A program made the position numbers and the translations under genes. From contig JAIRNH010000055.1 of the NCBI GenBank assembly GCA_031258155.1, positions 1 through 40,455 on the forward strand: a stretch of 40,455 nucleotides of DNA. Direction: 5' to 3'. Below are positions 5,419 to 23,949 of this stretch, piece after piece. Within the stretch, counting starts at the first letter, position 1. Each line of letters begins with the position of its first letter. The notes below the pieces were generated by a model. That model did no database searches, was not told the DNA's origin, and saw only the letters and a program-made list of their open reading frames with translations. Source of the stretch: Helicobacteraceae bacterium (GTDB lineage: Bacteria > Campylobacterota > Campylobacteria > Campylobacterales > SZUA-545).

Positions 5419-5505
5419 TGGCGGGCAGGGTGAGATTCGAACTCACGGAGGTTTTACCCTCGTCGGTTTTCAAGACCGGCGCTTAAACCGCTCTGCCACC
5501 TGCCC
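5419..5505 (-). tRNA. tRNA-Ser (anticodon UGA)
   Basis: On the minus strand the acceptor GGGCAGG (5505-5499) pairs with CCTGCCC, followed by discriminator G and an encoded CCA (5421-5419). The anticodon loop CTTGAAA gives UGA, and the T loop TTCGAAT is present. A long variable arm (class II), total 87 bases with CCA, fits serine. It lies 60 bases downstream of a second serine tRNA and is probably cotranscribed with it. Confidence 0.97.
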
Positions 5506-5565
5506 TAGTCGATTAGCCGTAGCCAAAATCGTCGCCGACTTCCAACTCCAATTTTAGAGGCGATA

Positions 5566-5655
5566 TGGCGGACAGAGAGGGATTCGAACCCTCGATACCC
5601 GCAAGGATATATCAGTTTTCGAGACTGACGCCTTCAACCGCTCGGCCACCTGTCC
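5566..5655 (-). tRNA. tRNA-Ser (anticodon CGA)
   Basis: Minus-strand acceptor GGACAGG (5655-5649) pairs with TCTGTCC (one G-U pair), then discriminator G and encoded CCA (5568-5566). The anticodon loop CTCGAAA gives CGA. The T arm GAGGG-TTCGAAT-CCCTC is perfect and the long variable arm marks a class II tRNA. Total 90 bases. It is the first of two tandem serine tRNAs. Confidence 0.97.
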
Positions 5656-22296: not shown

Positions 22297-22764
22297 TTAC
22301 GGAGCGCCGTCTGGTATCGACCGCGATAGAGCCAGTTGCGACTCTTTCACGCCCTTTTGCCCCTCCTCTTCGCCGACAAGCTGTAGCTTATTGCGAGCCG
22401 TTAAGACCCCCATCTTTACCTCCTGCCAGATGTAATAGAGTTTATTCGCCGCCGCGTTAAGGTCAAGAAGCGATTCGTTTTCAGCCTTTCCCTTAAAGAT
22501 ATGCCGTCCGGGCGCTAACTCTACGTAGTGATAGGTCTGTTTAGCCGTCGATCCAATAAGCCAATCATCTACAAAAACGTCCATTTTTATCGCCGCGCCG
22601 AAAAACTCGTTGCGGTAGATATAAACGCCAGCCTTGCCGTTTGTAGGCGCTTTGAACTCCTTAGCCTTTAGATCGTCCGCGCTTGAAGCCATAGGCACGG
22701 ACGCGCAACCGCTTAAAAACCAAACGCCAACCAACGCTAAGCAGCTAATCAGAAAGTTTTTCAT
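22297..22764 (-). CDS. DUF2846-like lipoprotein
   Basis: The 155-residue protein has a lipoprotein signal peptide with lipobox LSGC (Cys at residue 20), so it should be lipid-anchored. The mature part contains GKAGVYIYRNEFFGAAIKMD and ELAPGRHIFKGKAENES, the pattern of DUF2846-type proteins: a small beta-rich domain of unknown function. ATG 22764 has AAGGAG upstream. It starts 24 bases after the end of the phase-variable barrel gene on the same strand and is probably cotranscribed with it. It has its own ribosome site, so it may still be made when the upstream gene is OFF, barring polarity. Confidence 0.85.
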   Translation of the reverse strand: MKNFLISCLALVGVWFLSGCASVPMASSADDLKAKEFKAPTNGKAGVYIYRNEFFGAAIKMDVFVDDWLIGSTAKQTYHYVELAPGRHIFKGKAENESLLDLNAAANKLYYIWQEVKMGVLTARNKLQLVGEEEGQKGVKESQLALSRSIPDGAP

Positions 22765-22788: not shown

Positions 22789-23521
22789 CTACTCTACGAA
22801 AAACGCGTAGCTAAACAGGAATGAAAGACCGCCGAAGTTTTCGGATTCTTTTTTGCCGCCGTAGTTGTATTCAAGCTCTACCGGTATGCTACGATAGCCG
22901 ATTGAAAACTTAGCGCCGCCGCCAAAAACGTAACCTCCATAGATGCCAAAACTTACGCCGTCGCCTGAAAGACTATAGCCAACGTTGTAGTATTCGTCGC
23001 TACCGCCCGAAGCGCTAACAACGCCAAGCTCCGCTCCAATAAAAACGGAGTCGCTCTTGTAGCCTTCGATATAGTATTCGGCGGCTACGCCCGGAATAAC
23101 GATCGTATCTACATAATCGTCCGTCTTGCCTACGGCATCCTCCACCGAAACGGCGGTAAACGAAAGAGACAGTTGCGGTTTAACGACGACGTTTTCCGCT
23201 ACTCCAATTGGAACGCCCGCGTGCAGTTCAAAAAACAGACCCAGACCTTCGGAATCAACGCCATACGCGTCCTCGACGGCGCTAGTGTGGTTGCCTCCCG
23301 TATTAAACCCCGCTCCAAACTCAAAACCTATATCCGCGGCTTGAACGTTAGGAACGAAAACTAACGAAAGGACAAAAGCAAAAGAGGCGAGAATCCCGCT
23401 TTTTACAACCCTAACGGGGGGGGGGGGGGGTTGAACCTGTAATCGCAAACTCGTTCGTTTGCGCGGAGTTATCTGTTTCCGACGTAACAGCCGCGTTGGG
23501 CGGCGACCTGAATAGACGCAT
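22789..23521 (-). CDS. Outer-membrane beta-barrel-like protein, phase-variable by a C15 tract (OFF as read)
   Basis: The best start is ATG 23521, five bases after AAGGAGGG (23534-23527). From it, 30 codons lead into a run of 15 C on the coding strand. As given, the frame then reads Arg-stop, about 36 codons in. With 14 (or 11 or 17) C, it enters the long frame of 243 residues: a signal peptide (VVKSGILASFAFVLSLVFVP, cleaved near VQA-ADI, about residues 38-61) and a Gly- and aromatic-rich body (GFEFGAGFNTGG, YNVGYSLSGDGVSFGIYGGY) ending SYAFFVE, as in small outer-membrane barrels. A TTG at 23448 is in frame with the body now but has no ribosome site. TATAAA (minus, 23558-23553) is a possible -10. 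The extension of about 35 residues before the signal peptide is odd. Confidence 0.75.
23416..23430. repeat. Homopolymer of 15 G (plus strand), slippage tract
   Basis: Fifteen uninterrupted G on the plus strand, that is C15 in the coding strand of the barrel gene. It begins 91 bases after the first base of the ATG codon at 23521. Distance from ATG to the first base after the tract is 106 bases, one more than a multiple of three, which puts the downstream frame out of phase. G/C tracts of this kind are the classic contingency-locus element of Campylobacter and Helicobacter. Confidence 0.95.
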
Positions 23522-23949
23522 TGAAACCCTCCTTCTTGGAATATAAGTCGTCTTTATATAACAGAACTCCTTAAAAAATGACCATATTTAAGATAGCTAG
23601 GCTTTTGATCGATTAACAATGCCGATCGTTTTTACCGCCGCGATCGCGAGAATAACGGCAAACGCTCGATTTAGTAGAGCGCCGCGCCGCCTCTTTGTCG
23701 TTTTCGCGGCGCGCGTAACGACTTGCCGTCCTTCGCGTTCCATTAGGCAAAGGCGTATAGCGCGATCGCGATAGATCGCGCCGTTTGTTTTCGGCGTTTT
23801 TGCGTTCTAATGGCGGGAGCGGAAAGAGCGCCGTAATTTTTTACCGCCGCCTACTTGGTAACCGCGCCCAAAAGGGCGGCGCGATCCTCGCTCTATTAGC
23901 GGCTTTCGGCTATAATCCGCGCTTTTAGCTTTAGCAAAAGGTTACGCGC
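23522..23949. other. Divergent intergenic region between barrel gene and ilvB
   Basis: About 430 bases without a supportable gene. It holds the barrel gene's ribosome site, a possible minus-strand -10 box, dense GATCGC motifs (for example around 23639 and 23763), a GCCC-AAAA-GGGC hairpin near 23866-23877, and the ilvB promoter box. I see no leader peptide with branched-chain codons downstream of that box, so classical attenuation of ilvB is not indicated. Confidence 0.5.
23911..23916 (+). promoter_or_regulatory. Extended -10 box for ilvB
   Basis: TCGGCTATAATCC, with TATAAT at 23911-23916, is 33 bases before the ilvB ATG and matches the GGCTANAAT pattern. Confidence 0.5.

Follow-up and report, generated by a model that had tools for sequence, protein, structure and literature searches.

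A poly-C tract as the probable phase-variation switch of an undescribed, probable surface-barrel gene in a Helicobacteraceae bacterium

For the contig of a Helicobacteraceae bacterium analysed here (C55, accession JAIRNH010000055.1, referred to as the window at its full length of 40,455 nucleotides; one of 71 contigs of a 1.94 Mb draft genome), the question is why a minus-strand gene for a probable outer-membrane beta-barrel has a strong translational start that is separated from its signal peptide by a run of 15 Cs and lies in another reading frame. We favour, with a probability of about 0.88, the reading that the barrel gene is a translational phase-variation (contingency) locus, which was assembled out of register. 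Slipped-strand phase variation is typical of Campylobacterales and this is the ordinary kind of switch; the gene family itself is undescribed.

The ATG at 23521 is preceded by AGAAGGAGGG (AAGGAGG), with the Shine-Dalgarno sequence AAGGAGGG read at 23527-23534. A leader consisting of this ATG and about 30 codons (MRLFRSPPNAAVTSETDNSAQTNEFAITGS..; 23431-23521), which was recognised from the sequence and from partial identity to contig C34 of the same genome, runs up to the C15 tract at 23416-23430. The frame of the ATG, MRLFRSPPNAAVTSETDNSAQTNEFAITGSTPPPPR followed by a stop, crosses the tract and ends at 23413-23411, one codon past it. One base out of step with it, the frame that carries the signal peptide and barrel is already open before the tract is reached and continues to its stop at 22789. 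It encodes the signal peptide VRVVKSGILASFAFVLSLVFVPNVQA (23338-23415), with predicted cleavage before ADIG at an A-X-A-like site that is in the same place in most relatives, and a mature probable barrel of 182 amino acids with its stop (22789-23337). The distance from ATG to stop is 733 nt, so that one base fewer gives a protein of 243 residues. The original prediction, that C15 splits the strong start from the signal peptide and barrel, that the barrel is one base out of frame with a stop directly after the tract and that a C14 form would yield a 243-residue protein, therefore agrees with the sequence in its coordinates and frames. The tract was the only C/G run of at least nine bases in the window, for which dinucleotide shuffles average 0.03 nine-base matches, and it exceeds the usual poly-G/C threshold for slipped-strand phase variation (7-8 or more; PMC6321876).

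A tract was present at the same place in eight copies of the gene from six genomes and two genera, with 10, 12, 14, 15, 18, 19, 23 and 23 Cs. The leader could be read in seven of these copies, and was in frame with the barrel in three and out of frame in four. The in-register copies were those on contig C34 of the source genome (14 Cs, with its own ATG and strong Shine-Dalgarno sequence), in genome G010 (12 Cs, ATG leader with a strong Shine-Dalgarno sequence) and on contig C10 of G006 (23 Cs, the start being read off a noisy contig end). Out of register were the window copy (15 Cs), the copy in G001 (10 Cs, again with an ATG leader and strong Shine-Dalgarno sequence), that on contig C16 of G006 (18 Cs) and that in G011 (23 Cs). 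The eighth copy (19 Cs), with an unreadable start at a contig end, is from locus L031 in G003, the metagenome-assembled genome (MAG) Helicobacteraceae bacterium Iy174_bin57, which is the nearest named relative of the source genome. In the leader of the G010 copy (L110), the active tract is preceded by another C tract, which is interrupted and has GTTAGG after it; this arrangement looks like a duplication of the switch element.

The conserved position of the tract, its varied lengths, the occurrence of both registers, purifying selection on the barrel and the many similar tracts in the genome argue for slippage-controlled expression. The control by a slippage tract that was originally proposed is supported by these relatives, among which tract length is not fixed. 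Orthologues that lack the tract and start after it had been named in that proposal as evidence that would count against it, and such evidence exists by half: G009 has two tandem copies without a tract, yet their starts are further upstream and their hydrophobic core follows an extension of their own of about 26 residues. These copies and their tract-bearing relatives of the same genus provide a natural pair for asking how switches arise or vanish.

The source genome contains about 50 C/G tracts of at least nine bases, with a median interior length of 14. Tracts of at least 12 bases were found in all seven genomes of the genus (19-41 each) and in three genomes of the sister genus (11-22), and in none of five other genera of the family. 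Across the order, 53 of 299 genomes had at least one tract and the highest counts were 41 (G003, of the same genus as the source genome), 39 (G168, from another family) and 36 (the source genome), so the tract load of the source genome is high, not unique. The tract genes encode TonB-dependent receptors, O-antigen ligase, FkbM and TylF methyltransferases, acyltransferase 3, SGNH, glycosyltransferase 2, subtilase and an RCC1-repeat protein, which is a typical contingency set. Where a clear start could be assigned (n = 19), nine tract genes were in register and ten were out. The poly-C lay on the coding strand in the barrel gene and several others. Leader sharing between unrelated genes was not seen, common flanks occurring only between similar loci. 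Two such similar stretches, L056 (contig C28) and L070 (contig C43) near 8169, have their tracts at different positions, with C15 in only one of them at one site and, at another, G4 against G14.

The explanation that best survives beside a contingency locus is that the tract length was miscalled, the true majority length being in frame and the gene simply on in most cells; we consider this unlikely. C15 was read from a draft, and long runs of C can be miscalled when short reads are assembled. Of the 51 tracts of at least nine bases, 18 are no more than 150 bp away from a contig end, compared with 0.6 expected, and some adjoin noisy C-rich tails, which points to troubled assembly at tracts. This excess could reflect either real mixtures of lengths or plain trouble in sequencing C runs. 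However, the window tract is interior to its 40 kb contig, the relatives have tracts of widely different lengths, and three other genomes also contain out-of-register copies. A miscall would therefore touch mainly the OFF label of the window copy, not the switch.

Long homopolymers can slip in transcription and in translation, and if such slippage, ribosomal or transcriptional, were programmed at the C run, some barrel could be made in every register, with the tract setting the level of expression instead of turning it on and off. Such a model would tolerate the four out-of-register copies among the seven that are readable. However, it would need a conserved tract length, whereas the length varies and in-register copies exist. 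The sequence after the tract also speaks against it. In the window, GTTAGGGTTGTAA (23403-23415) holds stops in both non-barrel frames just past the tract (TAG 23413-23411 and TAA 23405-23403), and both wrong frames were closed within eight codons of the tract in all seven scored tract-bearing genes of the family, compared with frequencies of 0.11 at internal positions and 0.14 at gene starts in controls. Lineages differ in the sequence that forms these stops; as the window and G010 copies, like the two G006 copies, have sequence in common, about five of the seven cases are independent. This immediate closure suggests a strict off state, and we regard programmed slippage as very unlikely. As a genome-wide rule the stop guard was rejected, since it holds in only 5 of 18 other tract genes.

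That the tract has disrupted the gene and left a pseudogene would agree with the leader and barrel being out of frame as assembled. However, the 208 codons past the tract are otherwise undisrupted, in-register copies exist in the source genome and in others, and the ratio of nonsynonymous to synonymous substitution rates (dN/dS) of the barrel was 0.12 against G003 and 0.17 against G001, the latter copy itself being out of register. The barrel is under purifying selection, and we think it highly improbable that the gene is dead. The weakest alternative, that the barrel is translated from the TTG at 23448 inside the leader and that the ATG leader is irrelevant, can practically be dismissed: this TTG is in the barrel frame, upstream of the tract, where that frame has no ATG and no start linked to a Shine-Dalgarno sequence, but the tract would still separate it from the signal peptide. 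The real start is shown by C34, G001 and G010, each of which has an ATG leader with a strong Shine-Dalgarno sequence.

For the favoured contingency locus, the proposed mechanism is that slipped-strand mispairing at replication would add or remove Cs. When leader and barrel share a frame, a single protein would be made, with a leader of about 30 residues, a short proline run, the signal peptide and a small outer-membrane barrel, while the other two registers would lead to a stop within a few codons and to no barrel. Cleavage of the signal peptide would then remove the leader and the prolines. As cleavage is predicted downstream of the tract, the mature protein should be the same for every in-register length. 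We infer slippage in living cells, export and the barrel fold from sequence. The benefit would probably be surface diversity against phage, host or competitors.

The extension before the signal peptide was originally suggested to be a switchable, functional N-terminus. This is unsupported, because relatives that conserve the signal peptide and barrel have different leader sequences, and because the leader precedes the predicted cleavage site. The leader is probably a carrier of the tract that is removed on export, not a second functional N-terminus.

Within the source genome, the end of contig C34 matches the window at 23339-23507 with zero mismatches, differing by C14 for C15 and by one small gap. 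The identity of the leaders begins at about codon 6; the upstream DNA, the first codons and the Shine-Dalgarno sequence of C34 are unlike those of the window, and its ATG frame passes the tract into the signal peptide. Contig C30 opens with a barrel 74% identical to that of the window just where C34 ends, and the two contigs would thus appear to carry one paralogous gene. Near-identity over the first 170 bases, beside a 78% nucleotide match further on, suggests gene conversion. It is a tentative and rather doubtful idea that the switch is a module, made up of leader, tract, double-stop guard and signal peptide, and that gene conversion carries it from one paralogous surface gene to another. 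If so, a barrel would be put under random control with its mature protein unchanged, while tract-less homologues would run constitutively. L083 (C30) has GC-rich sequence of a different character at positions 1-442, adjoining the start of the barrel paralogue; this junction may be a product of chimeric assembly.

Several points weigh against a phase-variable barrel gene. The case is built entirely on assembled sequences, in which the lengths of long C runs are uncertain, and the C14 and C15 copies belong to separate, paralogous loci and so do not show that lengths are mixed at either of them. No MutS_I was found in the tract-rich genera, and no MutL_C in any of the 15 family genomes, tract-free ones included. 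This pattern is compatible with slippage that goes unrepaired, although it does not tell tract-rich and tract-free relatives apart; loss of mismatch repair alone cannot explain the tracts and was rejected as their sole cause. The barrel fold is probable, being drawn from weak profile matches (best E = 0.0024) and residue alternation, and an AlphaFold model from two sequences, the window protein and L031, had a predicted local distance difference test score (pLDDT) of 33. Of the signal peptide and barrel that were originally named, the former was read by eye, while the latter has these weak matches and this low-scoring model.

With regard to protein identity, the OMP_b-brl profile matched two of six family members (the best E given above) and the Autotransporter barrel profile three of six (best E 0.01), the window protein being below the cut-off. 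No Hop-family profile in Pfam or NCBIfam matched at E up to 1, NCBIfam gave nothing but a stray Ag43 match in one member, and a sequence search of the Protein Data Bank (PDB) gave no meaningful match. Residue alternation exceeded that of shuffles in all family members (z 1.6-4.0). Members from G009 and G006 end in YRF or FRF; the window protein does not have such an end. Relatives were confined to this genus and the tract-rich sister genus, with none in the other sampled genomes of the order, and the family has no curated model matching above the cut-off.

Downstream of the barrel gene on the same strand is a lipoprotein gene (22297-22764; DUF2846, PF11008, assigned by sequence and profile) with its own Shine-Dalgarno sequence, which is possibly co-transcribed with it. 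No sigma-70-like promoter beyond chance was found upstream of the barrel gene. In L031 (811-2763) a small lipoprotein-like gene and then one for an Lnb_N/DUF7843 protein come after the barrel, and the order in C30 is similar; in the window, the DUF2846 lipoprotein replaces this arrangement. Elsewhere in the window, at 5419-5655, there is an adjoining pair of tRNA-Ser genes with anticodons TGA and CGA.

A literature search found no paper on phase variation in termite-gut Campylobacterota; that the bacterium came from termites is a guess, for which no claim is made here. The locus would extend poly-C phase variation to an uncultured Helicobacter-related lineage, and the roughly 50 tracts counted would form a contingency-locus set for surface switching outside the well-known pathogens.

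Among known systems, the closest single gene is oipA (hopH) of Helicobacter pylori, with CT-repeat phase variation in the signal-peptide region (PMC10564699). Both cases involve an outer-membrane protein (a probable one here) from the same bacterial order, a repeat near the 5' end of the gene in the signal-peptide region, and on/off frameshifting by slipped-strand mispairing, which is inferred for the barrel gene. Unlike OipA, for which the CT dinucleotide repeat is inside the signal peptide, the barrel gene has a C homopolymer after a separate leader of about 30 codons, and its product matched no Hop-family profile. On the scale of the genome, the closest system is the Campylobacter poly-G/C phasome surveyed with PhasomeIt (PMC6321876), which likewise has genome-wide poly-G/C contingency tracts and a mixture of in- and out-of-register genes. 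In contrast to that phasome, the median interior tract here is 14, poly-C is found on the coding strand in the barrel gene and several others, and the GC content is about 52% in the window, compared with about 30% in Campylobacter.
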